Shown piece after piece: positions 8,820 to 41,065 of a stretch of 45,251 nucleotides of DNA; position 1 is the stretch's first letter, and each line of letters opens with the position of its first letter. The notes beneath the pieces are model-generated. The model searched no databases. It saw only the letters and a program-made list of their open reading frames with translations, and was not told the origin of the DNA. The stretch lies in assembly GCA_013202495.1 (NCBI GenBank), contig JABMQQ010000074.1:1-45251 (forward strand), given 5' to 3'. The stretch comes from Fidelibacterota bacterium (GTDB lineage: Bacteria; Fidelibacterota; UBA8477; JABMPR01). The position numbers and the translations under genes were made by a program.

Positions 8820-10109
8820 ATGTTATCAAAAAACGCCCTTAAAACAAAAAATGGCAGACTACTGGCATTTTCTCTCCTCTATTTATCTGAAGGTATCCCC
8901 TTCGGATTTAGTGCTATTGCTCTGGCAACCCACCTGCGCATGAGTGGGGTTGGGCTCACCGAGATCGGACTATTTACTGCTTCTCTGTATGCCCCATGGG
9001 GCTTTAAATGGGCCTGGGCACCCCTGGTAGATCTCATAAAATTTAAACGTTTTGGTGCGAAAAGAACCTGGATAGCTACCGCCCAGGCTGCCATGATTGG
9101 AACCCTGGGCATCGTGGTATTCTTTGACTATTCTACCAATATTCAGCTTCTAACTACACTCATCATAATTCACAATATTTTTGCCGCTACCCAGGATGTG
9201 GCCATTGACGCCCTGGCAATAAAGGTCCTACCAGAGAATGAACGCGGTATTGCCAATGGCTTTATGTTTGGTTCTTCCTATCTAGGCCAGGCTATTGGTG
9301 GTAGTGGTGCTTTGTTGATTGCTGGAAAGTTTGGCTTTGAGTTTTCCTTCCCCTTTGTCCTTCTCGCTCTCACCCTCATCCTGGTCTTCGTAACATTGAG
9401 ACTTCAGGAGCCGGCAGAGCCCATCACAGAAAAAATCCAATCTGGTGTCAGCGTCTTTCAAGAAATACTCAGTCAAATGAAACTGTTTTTAAAGGAGCTA
9501 TATCTAGGCTTCTTTAAGTCAGGAACTGGTCCATTGGTGGGCGTTGTTTTCTCTTTGCTCCCCTTTGGAGCCCTGGCCCTGGGTCTGGTTCTGGGAAGTG
9601 CCATTCAAGTAGATCTTGGAATGGATGAAAACCAGATAGCTAAGTTGACCATGTTCGGGACCATTTTTGCCGCTGCAGGTTGCATCATTGGTGGCTGGAT
9701 CTCAGACCGGGTTGGGCATCGAAAAGCTCTGGGTGTCTGGTATGTTTTGACGACTATCCCGACCTTTTATCTTGCTCGTCAGTTTATTGGGGTTGAGGGA
9801 ACAGCCGGTGTCACCATCGATCTCTTCTTCTATGTATCAATCGCCTACAGCTTTGCCAGTGGTTTACAGCAGGGAACCAGCACAGCCGTGTTTATGGGGT
9901 TGACCAGCCCAGCCGTAGCGGCAACACAATTTACAGGCTATATGGCTCTGCATAATTTTGTATACTCTTATTCCAGTCTGTGGCAGGGTAAATACGCTGA
10001 TCTGCATGGCTATGCAAAAGTACTGTTTATGGATGGCTGGATTGCCTTTATACCCCTCATTCTGTTGCCATTTCTCAAACCAAGAAAACAGTCTGTTGAA
10101 ACGAATTAG
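8820..10109 (+). CDS. AmpG/SLC33-like MFS transporter
   Basis: A 429-residue, about 12-helix major facilitator. Motifs GFKWAWAPLVD in the first loop and ATQDVAIDALAIKVLPENERG followed by ANGFMFGSSYLGQAIGG in the middle are typical of the AmpG / acetyl-CoA transporter-like branch, which moves muropeptides or other bulky anionic substrates. The substrate is not determinable. ATG 8820 starts MLSKN; an upstream TTG at 8790 is possible because GGAGG at 8801-8805 is distant (14 bases) from 8820. It ends one base before the ATG of the LytTR regulator, so the two are one operon. Confidence 0.75.
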   Translation: MLSKNALKTKNGRLLAFSLLYLSEGIPFGFSAIALATHLRMSGVGLTEIGLFTASLYAPWGFKWAWAPLVDLIKFKRFGAKRTWIATAQAAMIGTLGIVVFFDYSTNIQLLTTLIIIHNIFAATQDVAIDALAIKVLPENERGIANGFMFGSSYLGQAIGGSGALLIAGKFGFEFSFPFVLLALTLILVFVTLRLQEPAEPITEKIQSGVSVFQEILSQMKLFLKELYLGFFKSGTGPLVGVVFSLLPFGALALGLVLGSAIQVDLGMDENQIAKLTMFGTIFAAAGCIIGGWISDRVGHRKALGVWYVLTTIPTFYLARQFIGVEGTAGVTIDLFFYVSIAYSFASGLQQGTSTAVFMGLTSPAVAATQFTGYMALHNFVYSYSSLWQGKYADLHGYAKVLFMDGWIAFIPLILLPFLKPRKQSVETN

Positions 10110-28067: not shown

Positions 28068-28526
28068 TCACCAACCAAGCCAGGCTAAAATGTTATCTAT
28101 CCAACTGCTGCCAGACCTGGTGGTCTCACCGAAAGTTCCATCCTGGTTCAGGGTACGGTCATGATCAAGAATATTACCCCCGGCACACCTTATCATATAA
28201 TAGTTACCACTAATTAATGAATAGGTGTAGGAGTCGTCTGAGAAATACGCGCCAGTTAGCTCTCCCGGTTGAAAATACCCCCAATCCGCCTCAATCACAG
28301 AAACACCAAGTCCATCTGGATAGGAACCAAATTCAGCATAATAGATTCGTAGTTGGCTCCTAATGCTTCCAAGCGCCACATCTGCCTCAGCCTGCTTGGC
28401 TTTTTCAACGCTATTTCCGTAGATAGGTATGGCAATTGCCGCAAGAACCCCAATGATCACAATAACCACCATTAATTCTAATAGTGAAAATCCGCGGTCA
28501 TTATTGATATAGCTTGAATGAGTCAT
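28068..28526 (-). CDS. Type IV prepilin-like / pseudopilin protein
   Basis: A 152-residue class III signal protein. Short leader MTHSSYINNDRG, cleavage before Phe13 (G|FSLLELMVVIVIIGVLAAI), Glu at +5, and a long hydrophobic N-terminal helix continuing as amphipathic helix VEKAKQAEADVALGSIRSQLR. The C-terminal domain has YFSDDSYTYSL and MIRCAGG. It is PilA/pseudopilin-like and would be processed by a prepilin peptidase and assembled in the inner membrane. No other pilus or type II secretion gene is nearby, so it is an orphan. The ribosome binding site is weak (GAGA). Confidence 0.85.
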   Translation of the reverse strand: MTHSSYINNDRGFSLLELMVVIVIIGVLAAIAIPIYGNSVEKAKQAEADVALGSIRSQLRIYYAEFGSYPDGLGVSVIEADWGYFQPGELTGAYFSDDSYTYSLISGNYYMIRCAGGNILDHDRTLNQDGTFGETTRSGSSWIDNILAWLGW

Positions 28527-32422: not shown

Positions 32423-32433
32423 TGTTGCATTGT
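32423..32433 (+). promoter_or_regulatory. TGTTGCA site before sigma-54 activator
   Basis: TGTTGCATTGT here recurs exactly at 33803-33813 in the candidate enhancer. It is 36 bases before the GTG start of the activator, so the activator may regulate itself. Confidence 0.4.
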
Positions 32434-32468
32434 CAGACTCATACTAGATGCACAGAAGGGGAGGTCGA

Positions 32469-33785
32469 GTGGATAAATCCATAGAAAAAGCTTCAGAGAT
32501 TCTTGACTCTTTAAGTGAGGGAGTCATTACAATTGATAAGAAGTTCGTGATAACCTTTATCAATAGTGCTGCAGAATCATTTATTGGCACCACACGTCAA
32601 GATGCTATTGGCAAGAGCTGCAAGAGCATATGCCGATCTGAGCTGTGCGAGGCAGATTGTCCCATCACGCAGGTCATCAAGTCGGGCAAGAGTATTCACA
32701 ATTTTAATTCGAGAATGATTGCAAAGAATAAGAAAATTATTCCTGTAGTTCTCAACGCAGTAGTGTTAAGAAACAATCGAAATGAACCCAAGGCCGGCGT
32801 CCTTTCATTTCACCCCGCATCAAATCCCGATAGCTTGAAAAGTGTGGCCATACCCAACAGCTTTTGTGGTATTATCGGCAAAAGTAAAGCAATGCTGGAT
32901 ATCTTTCAATTAATACGGGAAATATCAAGATCTGACGCCAGTGTTTTAATTCAAGGTGAGACAGGAACAGGAAAAGAGTTGATTGCCAACGCAGTGCATG
33001 AGCAAAGCCAGAGAGCTTCAAATGCATATGTGAAGGTGAATTGCGCTGTGATCCCTCCGCAATTATTAGCCAGTGAACTTTTTGGGCACACCAAAGGGGC
33101 CTTTACAGATGCAAAAAGTGATCGGGTTGGTCGTTTTGAGTTAGCTGACCAAGGCACAATCTTCCTGGATGAAATTGCCGAGATGCCGACGAATATGCAA
33201 ACGCAATTATTGCGAATACTCCAAAACGGTTCTTTCGAGAGGCTGGGGGATTCTAACACGAGAACGGTAAATGTCCGAGTAATTGCTGCTACAAATATGG
33301 ATATTCAATCCGCAATAGACGGAAACAGGTTTCGGAATGATCTATTTTTTCGATTAAATGTCATCCCCATTCATATTCCACCTCTGAGAGAGCGGAAAGA
33401 GGACCTACCTTTTTTGTTTGAACACTTCATCCAAGTATTCAATCAAAGATATAACCGACAGATTGAAGAAATTGATACTGATGCCCTGGATATCCTTTTA
33501 CAGCATGAATGGCCTGGTAATATCAGAGAAGTCGAGAATGTGATAGAATATGCCTTTATCAGATCAAAAAAGAACCATTCGATATGTATCTGTGGCTTAC
33601 CACCATCCTTAAGAGCTCACATAGTGTGTAAAGAGGAAAGTGGGTCGACAGGCATAGCATCCATGAAGTCAGAACAGCTAGTAGCCCTCTTAGATCAAAA
33701 CAACTGGAATCAAAGCAAAGTAGCCGACATTTTAGGTGTACATCGATCCACAGTCTGGCGAAAATTGAAATCAATTCAGAGCTAA
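32469..33785 (+). CDS. PAS-domain sigma-54-dependent activator
   Basis: A 438-residue NtrC-type activator. N-terminal PAS (about 1-120) with a Cys-rich segment CKSICRSELCEADCPIT, a feature seen in PAS sensors of sulfur/metal-respiring bacteria and possibly redox- or cofactor-sensing. AAA+ domain: QGETGTGKELIANAVHEQS, the sigma-54 contact loop GHTKGAFTDA, LDEIAEMP and FRNDLFFRLNVIPIHIPPLRER. Fis-type helix-turn-helix NQSKVADILGVHRSTVWRKL at the C-terminus. I prefer GTG 32469 (GGAGG five bases upstream, start directly before PAS) over ATG 32448. It has no kinase/receiver link, so it senses directly. Two sigma-54 promoter matches follow downstream. Confidence 0.85.
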   Translation: MDKSIEKASEILDSLSEGVITIDKKFVITFINSAAESFIGTTRQDAIGKSCKSICRSELCEADCPITQVIKSGKSIHNFNSRMIAKNKKIIPVVLNAVVLRNNRNEPKAGVLSFHPASNPDSLKSVAIPNSFCGIIGKSKAMLDIFQLIREISRSDASVLIQGETGTGKELIANAVHEQSQRASNAYVKVNCAVIPPQLLASELFGHTKGAFTDAKSDRVGRFELADQGTIFLDEIAEMPTNMQTQLLRILQNGSFERLGDSNTRTVNVRVIAATNMDIQSAIDGNRFRNDLFFRLNVIPIHIPPLRERKEDLPFLFEHFIQVFNQRYNRQIEEIDTDALDILLQHEWPGNIREVENVIEYAFIRSKKNHSICICGLPPSLRAHIVCKEESGSTGIASMKSEQLVALLDQNNWNQSKVADILGVHRSTVWRKLKSIQS

Positions 33786-33792
33786 AATTAAC

Positions 33793-33887
33793 TGTTGCAA
33801 AGTGTTGCATTGTTGCATTTGTTCTGCATCAGTCTAAAGCATTAATTATAAAGCACATAACTCAATAAGTGTTGCATTCGATGCAAC
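33793..33887. promoter_or_regulatory. Candidate upstream activating sequences
   Basis: Three direct copies of TGTTGCA (33793-33799, 33803-33809, 33811-33817) and the palindrome GTTGCAT-TCG-ATGCAAC (33871-33887). They lie about 55-150 bases upstream of the sigma-54 promoter at 33942, the usual distance for an enhancer of an NtrC-type activator, and directly after the activator gene. Confidence 0.65.
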
Positions 33888-33941
33888 GTTCTCAATGACG
33901 TTACAAGGTGCAAAGGTGTTTTCATCCTAAAAATGCAATAA

Positions 33942-33958
33942 TGGTGAAGTATTTGCAT
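33942..33958 (+). promoter_or_regulatory. Sigma-54 promoter match (TPR-like gene)
   Basis: TGGTGA-AGTAT-TTGCAT fits TGGCAC-N5-TTGCA with GG and GC ten bases apart. Predicted transcription would start near 33969, almost at the ATG at 33970, so translation would be leaderless or start further inside. Confidence 0.45.
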
Positions 33959-33969
33959 TTCTGACAGCT

Positions 33970-34440
33970 ATGACAGAAATGCTGGCCAACTATTATTTGA
34001 TGAATCACAAATTTGAGGCTGCCGTTGCCGAATTGGAAACAGCCTTAATAAACTGTCCCAATAGTCTAAGTATCAAGAGAAAGCTTATGCTTGGCTACGT
34101 TATTACAGATCGTTCAGATGAAGCTTTACCACTGCTTTCTAGTATGGTCGAGGATGATTTGCCCAGCCTGGTTGGCAATTTCGACTCCGATGAAGTTTGT
34201 CCCTTCTCCATACTTCATGAAATAATCACTGGAACCCATAAATCAGCGAGATCCGCAGAGAATCTGACGAAGTCACTAGGCATAATCTGGCTGTTTCAAG
34301 ATGTCCCTAAGTCCTTGATATATTTGGAACAAGCCTATGCTAATGATACCAAAAATGTTTCACTGCTAAAGGTGATAAATATGGTGAGAGGATATATAAA
34401 AGAGTCTCGATCTTCAGTTTCCCAGTCTTCATACACATAA
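33970..34440 (+). CDS. TPR-like protein of unknown function
   Basis: A 156-residue helical protein. The opening MTEMLANYYLMNHKFEAAVAELETALINCPN is a TPR-like helix pair (Asn-Tyr, Ala, Pro spacing), followed by IKRKLMLGYVITDRSDEALPLL and, near the end, a third pair SLIYLEQAYANDTKN. No signal peptide or membrane helix. The start is uncertain: ATGs at 33970, 33979 and 34000 are in frame and none has a ribosome binding site. It lies between the sigma-54 activator and the rhodanese lipoprotein and may be a cytoplasmic partner of that system. Confidence 0.6.
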   Translation: MTEMLANYYLMNHKFEAAVAELETALINCPNSLSIKRKLMLGYVITDRSDEALPLLSSMVEDDLPSLVGNFDSDEVCPFSILHEIITGTHKSARSAENLTKSLGIIWLFQDVPKSLIYLEQAYANDTKNVSLLKVINMVRGYIKESRSSVSQSSYT

Positions 34441-34455
34441 TATGAAATATTTTCA

Positions 34456-34472
34456 TGGCATACTCATTGCCA
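34456..34472 (+). promoter_or_regulatory. Sigma-54 promoter of rhodanese-cytochrome operon
   Basis: TGGCAT-ACTCA-TTGCCA matches the -24/-12 consensus closely with correct spacing. Transcription would start near 34483, leaving a leader of about 65 bases before the ATG at 34548. Confidence 0.7.
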
Positions 34473-34547
34473 ATAACAGGTATAAAATGCACAAGATTTC
34501 AAAAACAATTTCAGTAAACCAAAGGTCAATAACTTAAGGAGAACCGT

Positions 34548-35549
34548 ATGCGCTTAATTTTGATACTTACATGTACACTACTGCTTTTCGCGTTTTGGTC
34601 ATGTGATTCAACGGAAGATGCTGAGGATGATTTCACTAATTTTGAACTCATCCAACCGGTGTTGGAAACCAGTACCTCTGCAGGTGCAGGAAAGCCAATA
34701 TCAGCTCAGACACTTTTTGATAATATGAACGATGGAAATGCATCAAACGATTACTTCGTTTTAAGTGTAAGAAGTGCTGAAACGTATGCATTGGGACATA
34801 TCCCTGGAGCAATTAATATTTATTGGAGAGATGTTGGCAATCCAACTAACCTCGCTCTGTTACCTACTGACCAGCCAATTCTTGTGTATTGCTACACAGG
34901 ACACACCGGTCAGGCAGTTGCGACTGTGTTGGTCAATCTTGGTTATGATGCAGTGAACCTCAAGTACGGATTTATGTCCTGGTCGAAAGATGAAACTGCC
35001 AGAGTACAGAGTCCCTTTGTTGATGATGTTGATGGTCATGATTATGCCACCGAAACAACAGCCACAGCTGGGGGTGATTTCGCCCTCGCGGAGCCAGATT
35101 GGATTAGCTCACAAGATGCTGATGAAATCATTGGGACTGCCGCAGATTATTGTTTAACAAATCGTGGACCGGTGATCAAGGCTGCTGATTTATTTGCCAA
35201 TTTGAATGATGGTGATACCACAAACGATCCTCAGGTCGTGAGTGTCCGTAGTGCCGATACCTATGCAATTGGACACATTCCTGGAGCCATCAATATTTAT
35301 TGGAAAGATATTGCCATCATCGACAATCTTAAAATGATTGACCCTTCAAAACAGGTTGCGGTATACTGCTATACCGGACATACTGGTCAAATTGCAGCAA
35401 CAGTATTATCCATCCTGGGTTATGATGCCGTAAATATGAAACACGGTATGATGGCCTGGTCACGTGATGTGGACGTTAGGGTTCAAAGTTGTTTCACTGA
35501 GGATGTTGATTCTCATGATTTCGCTATTACCACCGGGACCAACCCTTAA
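34548..35549 (+). CDS. Tandem-rhodanese lipoprotein
   Basis: A 333-residue exported protein. Signal peptide MRLILILTCTLLLFAFWSC with the lipobox Cys at residue 19, an acidic linker, then two rhodanese domains (about 50-160 and 210-325). Each has ALGHIPGAINIYW or AIGHIPGAINIYW, and the same active-site loop YCYTGHTGQ with a Cys but without the Arg typical of thiosulfate sulfurtransferases. The near-identical halves indicate internal duplication. AAGGAG lies about six bases before the ATG. A sigma-54 promoter match is upstream and a multiheme cytochrome follows. Likely an extracytoplasmic sulfur or polysulfide carrier feeding or protecting the cytochrome; inference. Confidence 0.85.
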   Translation: MRLILILTCTLLLFAFWSCDSTEDAEDDFTNFELIQPVLETSTSAGAGKPISAQTLFDNMNDGNASNDYFVLSVRSAETYALGHIPGAINIYWRDVGNPTNLALLPTDQPILVYCYTGHTGQAVATVLVNLGYDAVNLKYGFMSWSKDETARVQSPFVDDVDGHDYATETTATAGGDFALAEPDWISSQDADEIIGTAADYCLTNRGPVIKAADLFANLNDGDTTNDPQVVSVRSADTYAIGHIPGAINIYWKDIAIIDNLKMIDPSKQVAVYCYTGHTGQIAATVLSILGYDAVNMKHGMMAWSRDVDVRVQSCFTEDVDSHDFAITTGTNP

Positions 35550-35571
35550 TTAAAGCGGACTAAAATCGACG

Positions 35572-35611
35572 AATTCAGCAGAGACTACCCTCCAGTAATC
35601 TCTGCTGAATT
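35572..35611 (+). other. Intercistronic hairpin
   Basis: AATTCAGCAGAGA (35572-35584) and TCTCTGCTGAATT (35599-35611) are perfect 13-base arms with a 14-base loop. No T tract follows and it ends about seven bases before the GGAG of the cytochrome gene. It is probably an mRNA-processing or stability element tuning cytochrome against rhodanese expression. Confidence 0.7.
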
Positions 35612-35628
35612 GCAATTGTGGAGCGACC

Positions 35629-37005
35629 ATGACGAAACAAACAGTTCTAGTATTCATCTCATTCTGTCTACTCATTTTTTCATGTGGAGAAGTGGATGAT
35701 GACCCAAAGGATATTGTTGCAAGCTCTAGCTGTGTGGGTTGTCACAACAACATTGATTTATTGTTGGTAGTGGCTGATCCAATTGAAGACACCGGTGGTG
35801 AATCAACAGGCGAAGGCTGAGGTGGCTCAGTTGCTCAGTTGAGCGCAGAAGACCGTGTGTTTGTGGGAGATAGTTTTTTTGAGACTGTCCATGGTGAAAT
35901 GACTTGTGTCGAATGCCATGGCGGGGACAATGAAACAGACCTCACCAAAGAAGCCAAATCATTGGCGCACTCCCCTGATAAAAACTTTATTGCCCATCCA
36001 AGTCAGGATGCTGAGACATACTGCAAGGAATGTCATACAGAGGAAACAGAGAACTTTGCAAATAGTCTGCATTATACTCAAGCAGGATATTTTGAACGAT
36101 TTAAGGTCCGTGCGGGGGGGATGGACCTCCGAAATGATGCAAACATGCTAGCGGGCTTTAAACAAGATTGCGGAAGCTGCCATGCTACATGTGGACAATG
36201 TCACGTCACCAGACCAGTGTCAGTGAAAAGTGGTTTAAATTGGGGACATGAATTTAAGAAGATCCCGGATTTAAATAATAATTGTACAGCCTGTCATGGT
36301 TCCCGGGTTGGAGAGGAATACAAAGGCTCGCATGCTGGCGAAGAAGGCTGGCCGGCTGGAATAAGAGCTGACGTTCATTACAATAATGGTTTTCGATGCG
36401 ATTATTGTCATACTGGACATGAAATGCATGGAGATGGTTCCGAGTATTTCTACAGATATGTTGAGAATTCGAGCATGGTTCCGCAGTGCGAGGATTGTCA
36501 TACATATTCTGATCCGGAAACGAGCAGTCCTGATTACAATAGCTATCATGCCACGCACTGGACGGGTAGTGGTTCAAAGCTTCAGTGTCAGGTTTGTCAC
36601 TCCCAATCATACAAGAGCTGTAATGGATGTCATGCGAAAGGAACCGCCAGTCATGGTGGGATCACGGGTAAATCCTACCCATCTTTCAAGATTGGTAAAA
36701 ACTATTTAAAGAGTGTAGATCGAAATTACGATTACGCTTTAGTGAGACATATTCCGATCTCACCCGATACATATAATAATTGGAATGGATCGTATACTCT
36801 CACAACCTTTGCTGCTGAACCCACATGGAAATATACCACTCCTCATAATATTCAGCGTTGGACTGCCCAAACTGATACTACAGGAGGAGTATGGTGTGGC
36901 TTGTCCTGCCATTCCAACGACAATCTTTTTCTACATGAGACTGATGTCGATTCAACCTATTTGGATGCAGAGTTACAAGCCAATGAGAACGTCTTTATGG
37001 ACTAG
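35629..37005 (+). CDS. Multiheme c-type cytochrome lipoprotein with in-frame TGA
   Basis: Two frames, 35629-35820 and 35821-37005, are in register and separated only by TGA at 35818-35820 (codon 64). The first part holds a lipoprotein signal (LLIFSC, Cys at 19) and one heme motif CVGCH; the second has no ATG, no ribosome binding site and no export signal, so the two were or are one 458-residue protein. Heme motifs in order: CVGCH, CVECH, CKECH, CGSCH, CGQCH, CTACH, CDYCH, CEDCH, CQVCH, CNGCH, plus CGLSCH with three residues between Cys. That is ten CXXCH and one CX3CH. Possible role: outer-surface or periplasmic electron transfer, perhaps on sulfur compounds given the rhodanese partner. A terminator follows. 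Whether it is functional depends on the TGA. Confidence 0.75.
35818..35820 (+). other. In-frame TGA within cytochrome gene
   Basis: The context is a Gly-rich linker, GESTGEG then TGA then GGSVAQ. A single change from GGA (Gly) would restore the frame. The downstream bases can form only a weak hairpin (GCTCA/TGAGC) with no obvious SECIS apical GGU, so selenocysteine is possible but not favoured. Confidence 0.8.
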
Positions 37006-37093: not shown

Positions 37094-37120
37094 AAAAAAC
37101 CCGCTGATGTGGGTTTTTTT
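37094..37120 (+). terminator. Rho-independent terminator after cytochrome
   Basis: AAAAAACCCGC, loop TGAT, GTGGGTTTTTTT. It starts 88 bases after the cytochrome stop; the A/T symmetry makes it usable on both strands. Confidence 0.9.
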
Positions 37121-39532: not shown

Positions 39533-41065
39533 ATGAACAAGAGTGAATTTTTCAGACAGGCTACTCTCAGAATCTGCGGGAATCTAGATATTGAGGCGGC
39601 CTTGTACTCATTACTGATATTCCTCCAGGATCACATGCCGGTTACAAATATATTTCTGCAAAAATTCGAGCCTGGTTTCAATTCCATGCGCACTATTGCA
39701 TACGCAAACTCAAACGATTGTGGTTCACTAGATTTACTGACCCCCCTCACCAGCCAATCTCAGGAAAGAGCCGGAAGCTCTCAATCTGGCGATGGTATGT
39801 TTCTCATCGATGATCCAGGCAATTTCCCGGTGGCGCAGGAAATGCTCTCTTTTCATAATCTTCATGCTTCAAGCTTGTTGTTAATGATCATGCGTGCTGA
39901 GATTCTCACACTGGGTTCGTTGGTCCTCATCAGTGAAGAACCTGATCGATTTAACGATGAGCATAAGGAGTTAATGGCTTTATTAACCAAGCCGTTGATC
40001 GTAGCGCTCTCGAATGTTTTGAAGCATCGAGAAATTTTATCACTAAAAGATCTTTTGGCCGAAGATAATCGCTTTTTGCAGAAAGAACTCCGCAGCCAAT
40101 TATCTGATGAAATTATTGGTGCCAATTTTGGATTGAAAAATGTTATGTCTCGTGCCAGGCAGGTCGCAGGAATGGATAGCCCTGTACTACTCCTGGGTGA
40201 AACGGGAGTTGGTAAGGATGTTATCGCACAAGCCATCCATTATTCATCCAAGCGAAGGGATCGTCATTTTATAAAGGTCAACTGTGGAGCTATCCCAGAA
40301 TCGCTCATCGATAGTGAACTATTCGGACATGAGAAAGGCGCATTTACGGGCGCCTTAAAATTGCAATTGGGCAAATTTGAACGTGCAGACGGAGGTACGA
40401 TTTTTCTTGACGAGATTGGTGAACTTCCCCTTAAGTCCCAAACCAGATTATTGCAGGTTTTACAAGAAAAAACCATCGAGCGCGTGGGTGGGACAGAGAC
40501 ATTGGATCTTGATATTCGAATTATAGCAGCCACCAACCGCAATTTGGAGGCCATGGTTAGCTCGCAGGAATTTCGAGCCGACCTCTGGTTTAGGTTGAAT
40601 GTATTTCCCATCAACATCCCGCCCTTGCGAGACCGGCTGATTGATCTTCCTGCTTTCACACAATATTTCCTACATGAAAAGTCTAAAGAATTGAAATTGG
40701 AGGCGGTTCCTGAGCTTAAACCCGGCGCCATCACAAAATTATCTAGCTATGAATGGCCAGGAAATGTGAGAGAATTACAAAATATCATTGAGCGTGAGAT
40801 CATTATTAATCCTTCAGGTCCCATAGATTTCAGTAATAGTGGAATTGGACAGACTATAAAATCCAAGCAAAAAGTAACCCACGAGGGGACAATTGAAAAG
40901 CTTGATCTAGCTATAGCTCGTCACATTCAACGCGCGCTGACGGCAACTGGCGGTGTTATTCATGGACCAAGTGGGGCAGCTGAACTTCTTGGAGTCAATC
41001 CCAATACCTTGAGAAGCAGAATCAAAAAACTTTCTTCAATGTTTGACTTTCGTTTTGATGGATAA
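39533..41065 (+). CDS. GAF-domain sigma-54-dependent activator (FhlA/NorR-like)
   Basis: A 510-residue activator. Residues 1-170 are GAF-like (LDIEAALYSLLIFLQDHMPV, then MIMRAEILTLGSLVLISEE), a coil follows, and the AAA+ domain carries LGETGVGKDVIAQAIHYSS, sigma-54 loop GHEKGAFTGA, LDEIGELPL and FRADLWFRLNVFPINIPPLRDR. C-terminal Fis-type helix-turn-helix GAAELLGVNPNTLRSRIKKL. The architecture is that of FhlA/NorR; the GAF ligand is unknown and the usual NorR iron ligands are not apparent. AAGGA lies about six bases before the ATG. It is divergent from the hydrolase operon and presumably activates it through the inverted repeat between them. Confidence 0.85.
   Translation: MNKSEFFRQATLRICGNLDIEAALYSLLIFLQDHMPVTNIFLQKFEPGFNSMRTIAYANSNDCGSLDLLTPLTSQSQERAGSSQSGDGMFLIDDPGNFPVAQEMLSFHNLHASSLLLMIMRAEILTLGSLVLISEEPDRFNDEHKELMALLTKPLIVALSNVLKHREILSLKDLLAEDNRFLQKELRSQLSDEIIGANFGLKNVMSRARQVAGMDSPVLLLGETGVGKDVIAQAIHYSSKRRDRHFIKVNCGAIPESLIDSELFGHEKGAFTGALKLQLGKFERADGGTIFLDEIGELPLKSQTRLLQVLQEKTIERVGGTETLDLDIRIIAATNRNLEAMVSSQEFRADLWFRLNVFPINIPPLRDRLIDLPAFTQYFLHEKSKELKLEAVPELKPGAITKLSSYEWPGNVRELQNIIEREIIINPSGPIDFSNSGIGQTIKSKQKVTHEGTIEKLDLAIARHIQRALTATGGVIHGPSGAAELLGVNPNTLRSRIKKLSSMFDFRFDG

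Follow-up and report, generated by a model that had tools for sequence, protein, structure and literature searches.

The window analysed here is a stretch of 45,251 nucleotides, contig JABMQQ010000074.1 of assembly GCA_013202495.1, from an uncultured marine Fidelibacterota bacterium, and the module under study lies at positions 32423-37005. According to open reading frames (ORFs) and Pfam matches, all genes of the module are on the forward strand and follow each other as a PAS-type sigma-54 activator (32448..33785), a group of intergenic sites, a TPR-like protein of 156 amino acids (aa; 33970..34440), a lipoprotein with two rhodanese domains (34548..35549) and a multiheme cytochrome lipoprotein (35629..37005). 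An earlier reading made from the letters of this DNA alone (hereafter the sequence-only reading) had listed a Cys-rich PAS sigma-54 activator, a TPR-like protein, a tandem-rhodanese lipoprotein and a decaheme-type cytochrome lipoprotein. PAS, AAA+ and helix-turn-helix (HTH) matches together with a Cys cluster bear out the first of these, two rhodanese domains were recovered by Pfam in the lipoprotein (E 2.4e-32, two stretches), and the TPR-like protein is present as described, though its best Pfam match (TPR_14, E 7.5e-4) falls under the cut-off. The cytochrome is a multiheme lipoprotein, as proposed, but it has eleven heme motifs and is not a decaheme protein, its true start is at 35629, and an in-frame TGA had been overlooked. 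We consider it likely that the module is a two-gene redox unit, made of the rhodanese and the eleven-heme cytochrome lipoproteins, which is controlled by a dedicated activator and in which UGA is read as selenocysteine (Sec).

The mechanically called ORF of the cytochrome covers 35839-37005, and its frame extends upstream to an ATG at 35629 with a single interruption, GEG-TGA-GGS, at codon 64 (35818..35820, forward strand). With this TGA read as Sec, the predicted product is a lipoprotein of 458 aa, whose restored N-terminus contains a lipoprotein-type signal (LLIFSCGE) and the first heme motif (CVGCH). In total, ten CxxCH motifs and one CxxxCH motif are present, one before the TGA and ten after it. 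The orthologs in two genomes of the same class, G006 (95% protein identity) and G003 (78%), have a TGA at the same codon, and the DNA just downstream of it is almost unchanged. Nonsynonymous rates (dN) are well below synonymous rates (dS) on both sides of the TGA, as estimated from the aligned sequences, indicating that the two parts of the gene are under purifying selection; synonymous sites are near or beyond saturation in the comparisons with G003 and with the Calditrichaceae locus L124, and the TGA is kept. Two features expected of a selenoprotein gene were found, namely an in-frame UGA within a conserved frame and Cys at the UGA position in homologs.

The distribution of this codon was followed at two scales. 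Among 24 full-length members within the class (the truncated L027 and L034 being left out), 18 carry TGA, one Cys, one His, and four have no equivalent. A wider scan with one genome per species returned 207 relatives, and 78 loci were retained from them; all family counts below refer to these 78 of 207, and many of the class genes recur among them, so that the two sets of counts are not additive. At the homologous codon, 62 of the 78 loci carry TGA, seven carry Cys (L063, L110, L113, L114, L118, L120 and L128), eight have neither (L061, L062, L075, L080, L081, L092, L105 and L122), and one (L064) is truncated. Two Gly codons always follow the TGA in the 66 aligned sequences that have it (the 62 loci, the window, its orthologs in G003 and G006, and a second copy located on contig C141 of the window genome). 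One of the eight, L105 (7040-8551, Krumholzibacteriota), reads GDAWVGEVPPLE where its relatives have DG-TGA-GGEVPxLE; a real change, an indel or a sequencing error are all possible. The records with a TGA form are titled Neomarinimicrobiota, Calditrichota, Krumholzibacteriota, Gemmatimonadota, Latescibacterota, Electryonea, Eisenbacteria, Delongbacteria, Myxococcota and KSB1, among others. Some of these bin labels are unreliable: the near-identical TGA-form loci L087, L089 and L090 are titled Gemmatimonas, Latescibacterota and Fibrobacter, respectively.

A putative hairpin resembling a selenocysteine insertion sequence (SECIS) lies just after the TGA (35832..35846, forward strand), where the window reads GCUC-AGUU-GAGC at 35833-35844; its support comes from covariation in relatives. 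The sequences were aligned without gaps from the TGA and grouped by loop bases into group A (n=40) and the others (n=26). In group A, a stem formed by positions 15-20 and 24-29 has 86% of its cells paired, with 38 cells changed on both sides, and a covariation of 0.467 compared to 0.056-0.171 when the partners are slid; none of 500 shuffles reached the paired share, the number of double-changed cells or the covariation. The other 26 sequences, mostly Krumholzibacteriota-like, share a stem at 16-23/27-34 that is 94% paired, with a covariation of 0.213 against at most 0.056 for slid partners, and at most one of 500 shuffles was as high on any covariation measure. The structures were drawn from the same sequences on which they were scored and coding constraint limits the test, a constraint that the slid controls share. 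In the Cys-form clade L110, L114, L120 and L128 the hairpin is at chance level (2-3 of 6 group-A pairs), and it persists in the Cys forms L063 and L113 (6 of 6 pairs) and partly in L118 (4 of 6). A bacterial SECIS-type hairpin 3' of the UGA is therefore indicated by covariation across the family, and not by minimum-free-energy folding of single sequences.

The machinery for Sec decoding is frequent in the genomes that hold the family. A tRNA-Sec with anticodon TCA was found in the window's own bin, and selA and selB were each detected over the cut-off in 21 of the 23 class genomes. Outside the class, SelA was sought (E<=1e-40) for 50 of the 61 loci, corresponding to 39 genomes with a TGA form, 6 with a Cys form and 5 with another form. 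It was found in 35/39, 2/6 and 4/5 of these, respectively (TGA versus Cys, Fisher p 0.006), the negatives coming from genomes of unstated completeness.

From these data, the UGA at codon 64 is almost certainly decoded as selenocysteine. Some observations weigh against this reading or against its extension to the whole module. Eight relatives carry neither TGA nor Cys at codon 64. The hairpin of group A is weak on two of five measures, since 19 of 500 shuffles match it for double-change pairs and 245 of 500 for pair types. In the window itself it makes only one of the six group-A pairs, its pairs forming in a register shifted by one with a stem of 4-5 bp, and it is no more stable than shuffled sequences (z +0.66); none of the seven sequences folded went beyond z -1.72, and a search against Rfam gave no SECIS match. 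Neither selA nor a true selB was found in the window's own bin, which is 86% complete; as the two genes are neighbours in relatives, one assembly gap could explain the absence of both. The genome of L124, which holds the nearest relative of the cytochrome outside the genus, has no SelA match, as is the case for three more of the 39 TGA-form genomes, and the class genome G015 holds the Sec machinery even beside a Cys form. Finally, no rhodanese ORF was detectable at 20 of the 78 loci.

Other explanations of the TGA were examined with the same material. If it were a true stop, the locus would code for a monoheme lipoprotein of 63 aa followed by a separate cytochrome starting from TTG 35839, which is how mechanical ORF calling splits the gene, and the two pieces are indeed consecutive in one frame. 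This is nevertheless very improbable: the second piece shows no visible signal peptide, which is needed for heme attachment outside the cytoplasm, so that a true stop would leave ten heme motifs unexported; both pieces form a single frame in Cys-form relatives; in relatives, what aligns with the presumed start codon is an ordinary Leu position (TTG, TTA or CTG, with one GTG); and a covarying hairpin stands at a fixed distance after the TGA. An assembly error or a decaying gene might be invoked because the bin is a fragmented draft of 255 contigs, but this has next to no probability, since 62 of 78 relatives, as well as independent genomes, share the TGA at this codon and both sides of it are under purifying selection.

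Reading of the TGA as another residue (Trp or Gly), or by generic suppression, would agree with its place in a Gly-rich stretch and with the residues other than Cys seen in 8 of the 15 full-length non-TGA members. We judge it extremely improbable, since Cys is the commonest substitute (7 of the same 15), and since TGA is an ordinary stop in the window while the Sec machinery is found in relatives and co-occurs with the TGA form. TGA terminates 12 of 31 window ORFs picked by hand from the ORF list, and thus the codon is not wholesale reassigned. Assembly error, a true stop and codon reassignment were all rejected after these tests, on the grounds of the relatives, selection, covariation and the use of TGA as a stop.

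A maximum-likelihood tree of 81 rows, rooted at midpoint only and thus not showing the direction of change between Sec and Cys, counts three label changes for Cys and ten for Sec. The Cys forms L063 and L113/L118 each sit inside groups that otherwise bear TGA. The window cytochrome groups with L124 (support 100/99), apart from the copy on contig C141. This second copy (L131, G000:C141 27-10417) has a different setting, with a MerR regulator, a TGA-containing cytochrome, a rhodanese, several multiheme cytochromes, a cytochrome b561-type membrane protein and NHL proteins. The window rhodanese is also nearer to that of L124 (50% identity over 333 aa) than to that of C141 (37%). These two relationships, in a module present in only 3 of the 23 class genomes, suggest that it was laterally transferred. 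Locus L118 has an activator (52% identity), a TPR homolog and a Cys-form cytochrome in the same order as the window. The near-identical L113 holds an activator fragment at its contig end; its TPR gene is preceded by a sigma-54 site, and a palindrome (TTTGTTTCACCGAAACAAA) is also present. In L113 and L118 a TPR-like homolog (29% identity; E 8e-17 and 3e-16) separates the activator from the cytochrome. L113 also has a rhodanese, as two overlapping ORFs, which could not be located in L118 between the cytochrome and the next gene (9233-9547). In L124, a sigma-54 site (TGGCACACTCATTGCA) precedes the rhodanese-cytochrome pair and a palindrome (TTGAAACGACCTGTTTCAA) is present, but no activator gene was identified in the contig stretch around the pair.

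The association with a rhodanese is widespread in the family. In the window protein, the active-site loop CYTGHTG and a catalytic Cys can be read in both domains, as expected of rhodaneses. With a profile grown from the first domain of the window protein and applied within the 78 loci, 58 of them were found to have a rhodanese ORF on the same strand that adjoins or overlaps the cytochrome, and it starts 17-280 bases after the cytochrome match in 51 of these 58; in the window and L124, the rhodanese precedes the cytochrome. Its size is usually around 300-360 aa, with longer forms in Krumholzibacteriota-like and some other contigs. Some loci additionally harbor further multiheme cytochromes and proteins that resemble outer-membrane barrels when read by eye, although the three of them that were compared with Pfam and NCBIfam gave no match.

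The activator combines a PAS domain (E 4e-11), a sigma-54 interaction AAA+ domain (PF00158, E 1.2e-69), an AAA lid (E 1e-22) and a Fis-type DNA-binding HTH_8 (E 2.3e-9), and therefore has both the AAA+ and the HTH parts that characterize sigma-54 enhancer-binding activators. It also contains the Cys cluster CKSICRSELCEADC, read in the sequence, and a GAFTDA loop; the usual loop in such activators is GAFTGA. The window module resembles the systems governed by PAS-type enhancer-binding activators in this domain set as well as in its palindromic site and -24/-12 promoters. No named NCBIfam regulator family fits it, the best model being PrdR with 345 bits for a cut-off of 795. Orthologs (E<=1e-90) occur in 3 of 23 class genomes, the window's own, G003 and G006, which are the same three that hold the module.

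The sequence-only reading had also proposed clustered TGTTGCA sites and a palindrome after the activator gene, two sigma-54 promoters, and the same 11-mer ahead of the activator gene. The heptamer is not enriched in the window as a whole (8 observed, 8.6 expected), but its placement is uneven: four of the eight copies fall in 33793-33876, within the 84 bases that follow the activator gene, and one is at 32423 just before the gene. Three of them make up a putative upstream activating sequence (33793..33817, forward strand), whose core GTGTTGCATT is kept in G006 and G003. The palindrome TGTTGCATTCGATGCAACG (33870..33888), of the form TGTTGCA-N5-TGCAACG, was identified by motif scan and conservation as a putative activator-binding site; its position and approximate form are retained in G006 and G003, with changes in one arm of each. 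At one mismatch to TGTTGCA-N5-TGCAACA, the bin contains only this palindrome and one other site, and at up to two mismatches 29 sites against 5 in the backward control. Being one of the two best matches in the bin, the palindrome suggests that the activator may have a narrow regulon. The 11-mer TGTTGCATTGT was found at 32423..32433 (forward strand) as announced, and could be an autoregulatory site; it has five copies in the bin and none in the backward control, and its TGTTGCAT part is retained in G006 before the activator, the stretch not being alignable in G003.

Of the two promoters, the one at 34456..34471 (TGGCATACTCATTGCC, forward strand), predicted to serve the rhodanese-cytochrome pair, held up well. 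Statistics do not single it out: matches to the sigma-54 consensus are no more frequent in the window than expected (23 at up to two mismatches, 25.9 expected), and it is one of five sites at one mismatch. Conservation does: CATGGCATACTCNTTGCCA is identical in the three genomes apart from N, whereas the G003 DNA around it has diverged, and the GG-N10-GC element is also present in L124, ahead of the same pair. The site at 33942..33957 (TGGTGAAGTATTTGCA, forward strand), 12 nt ahead of the TPR-like gene's ATG, is a weaker candidate with weak to moderate support, since its -12 GC is GT in G003 (TTGC to TTGT); counterparts lie at the same place in L113 (TGGCGAGGTTGTTGCA) and L118 (TGGCAGGGTTCTTGTT). 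Gene order and promoter elements, whose lack of conservation in relatives had been named as the result that would speak against the sequence-only reading, are kept in G003 and G006. Its picture of a sensor-enhancer-promoter-effector unit is thus supported at the level of sequence, and it is highly probable that this activator controls the rhodanese-cytochrome unit through sigma-54.

Such control seems to characterize a subgroup and does not appear general in the cytochrome family. The 300 bp preceding the cytochrome match were searched in the 75 loci, out of 78, whose DNA extends far enough, a design that is blind to the L124 site, which precedes the upstream rhodanese. No GG-N10-GC was found there in 36 of the 75, and at least 10 of the 12 consensus bases were matched in only two; among the 20 best sites listed, four exceed the best of 20 shuffles. 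Other regulators (MerR, TetR) were found at other family loci. In addition, activators of 578 and 582 aa, with 39% and 36% identity to that of the window over part of their length, lie near TGA-form cytochromes in L111 (4592-6328) and L094 (1737-3485). Their N-terminal stretch resembles, by eye, a low-molecular-weight phosphatase/arsenate reductase, and in L111 the sequence TGGCACGTATTATGCT lies ahead of the next gene.

Few other features were noted around the module. An intrinsic-type terminator-like hairpin with a T run can be read after the cytochrome gene (37094..37120, forward strand). A pilin-like gene (FSLLELMVVIVI) is found upstream of the module both in the window (28068-28526) and in G006 (L129 2979-3437), so the surrounding locus is partly syntenic. 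Close downstream, at 39533-41065, the window holds a second apparent sigma-54 activator gene, with an AAA+ region visible in its translation.

The closest known parallel is the extHIJKL(MNOPQS) cluster of Geobacter, in which the rhodanese lipoprotein ExtH and the predicted Sec-containing pentaheme cytochrome ExtKL are encoded together; selenite and tellurite reduction is reported to be impaired when ExtI is lost (PMC5877670, PMC6148476). This cytochrome was already a candidate in PMC1914089. The likeness lies in a multiheme cytochrome whose in-frame TGA is predicted to encode Sec and which has a rhodanese lipoprotein as neighbour; in part of the window family, other multihemes are also close by. 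The architecture differs: in ExtKL the TGA comes after five heme motifs with a non-heme part beyond it, whereas the window cytochrome has one motif before and ten after, and the window module, unlike the ext cluster, has its dedicated PAS/sigma-54 activator. Identity with ExtKL was tested and rejected, as its model NF040886 (cut-off 250 bits) was matched neither by the window cytochrome and the C141 copy (E up to 1) nor by four relatives (E up to 0.1). Among 13 family-holding genomes none has an NF040886 match over the cut-off; seven have weak matches (best 42 bits), with none in G000, G003 or G006, and the six weak matches retrieved are other multiheme genes.

An inventory of 119 prokaryotic selenoprotein families (May 2026, PMC13188914, Table 1) lists, in the part available, ExtKL, GSU2204 and an octaheme cytochrome, and nothing recognisable there as the window cytochrome family. 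The multiheme or CXXCH proteins that it includes comprise a Sec-containing octaheme cytochrome of the tetrathionate reductase family (TIGR04315) and the GSU2204-type CXXCH protein (NF041027), and neither model was matched by the window cytochrome or the C141 copy at E up to 1. Moreover, no NCBIfam model scored above cut-off for six family members, and a PDB sequence search with the family profile returned nothing meaningful (best E 0.22). No description of this cytochrome family was found in the searches made of an open-access library or in the inventory table. Passages from PMC3495685, PMC8691401, PMC7894505, PMC9012536, PMC2702500, PMC9012183, PMC10376724, PMC6896113 and PMC12545173 were of no direct relevance to it. 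The cytochrome thus apparently represents an undescribed and widespread selenoprotein family, distinct from the ExtH/ExtKL pair of Geobacter.

Both products of the pair carry lipoprotein-type signals and would be exported. We propose that SelA, SelB and tRNA-Sec decode the UGA at codon 64 with the aid of the SECIS hairpin directly 3' of it. In the rhodanese, sulfane sulfur (or selenium) would be bound as a Cys persulfide, to be passed on to Sec64, where a selenosulfide would form, and the heme chain would supply or remove electrons during this reaction. In this way, polysulfide, thiosulfate or selenite/tellurite might be reduced or oxidized by the pair, at the cell surface or in the periplasm. 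The C141 copy, where a cytochrome b561-type membrane protein and further multihemes come after the pair, tips the balance slightly towards reduction. Sulfane-sulfur chemistry is nevertheless a tentative assignment, which we hold as plausible but not as probable; the sequence-only reading had likewise offered its sulfur-related role as inference. Alternatively, the unit could function in reducing selenite/tellurite or metal oxides, the role put forward for the ext cluster. The shared part types (a rhodanese lipoprotein and a Sec multiheme cytochrome), the barrel-like proteins and further multihemes of some relatives, and a weak ExtM match (34 bits for a cut-off of 800) are consistent with such a role; the window module, however, has no barrel gene and no NCBIfam match to ExtKL, and we regard this role as rather unlikely.

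The conserved residues allow a more specific proposal on Sec64. In an alignment of 49 members, the window cytochrome has eleven heme motifs for ten conserved non-motif His, nine of which are present in at least 47 rows and one, H374, in 44, so that a distal His would be missing for one heme. Position 64 is Sec or Cys in 43 of the 49, and apart from the lipidated Cys19 it is the only other conserved soft ligand candidate. Sec64 could thus be located at a heme, with its selenolate either as ligand or as a catalytic group beside an open face, handling the sulfane sulfur delivered by the rhodanese. We advance this arrangement as a speculative and unlikely possibility; if true, it would be a natural heme-selenocysteine active site.

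The family would enlarge the short list of heme-containing selenoproteins, and its hosts belong to uncultured and little-known bacterial groups; some record names (BS150m, SI036, SulCav) may point to anoxic or sulfidic habitats. Ordinary gene calling is expected to cut such genes at the TGA, with loss of the signal peptide and the first heme. With a Sec cytochrome and a rhodanese paired in a family separate from ExtH/ExtKL, the idea of a common sulfur or selenium chemistry can be put to the test, and the set of activator, palindrome and promoter would provide a handle on when the unit is used.

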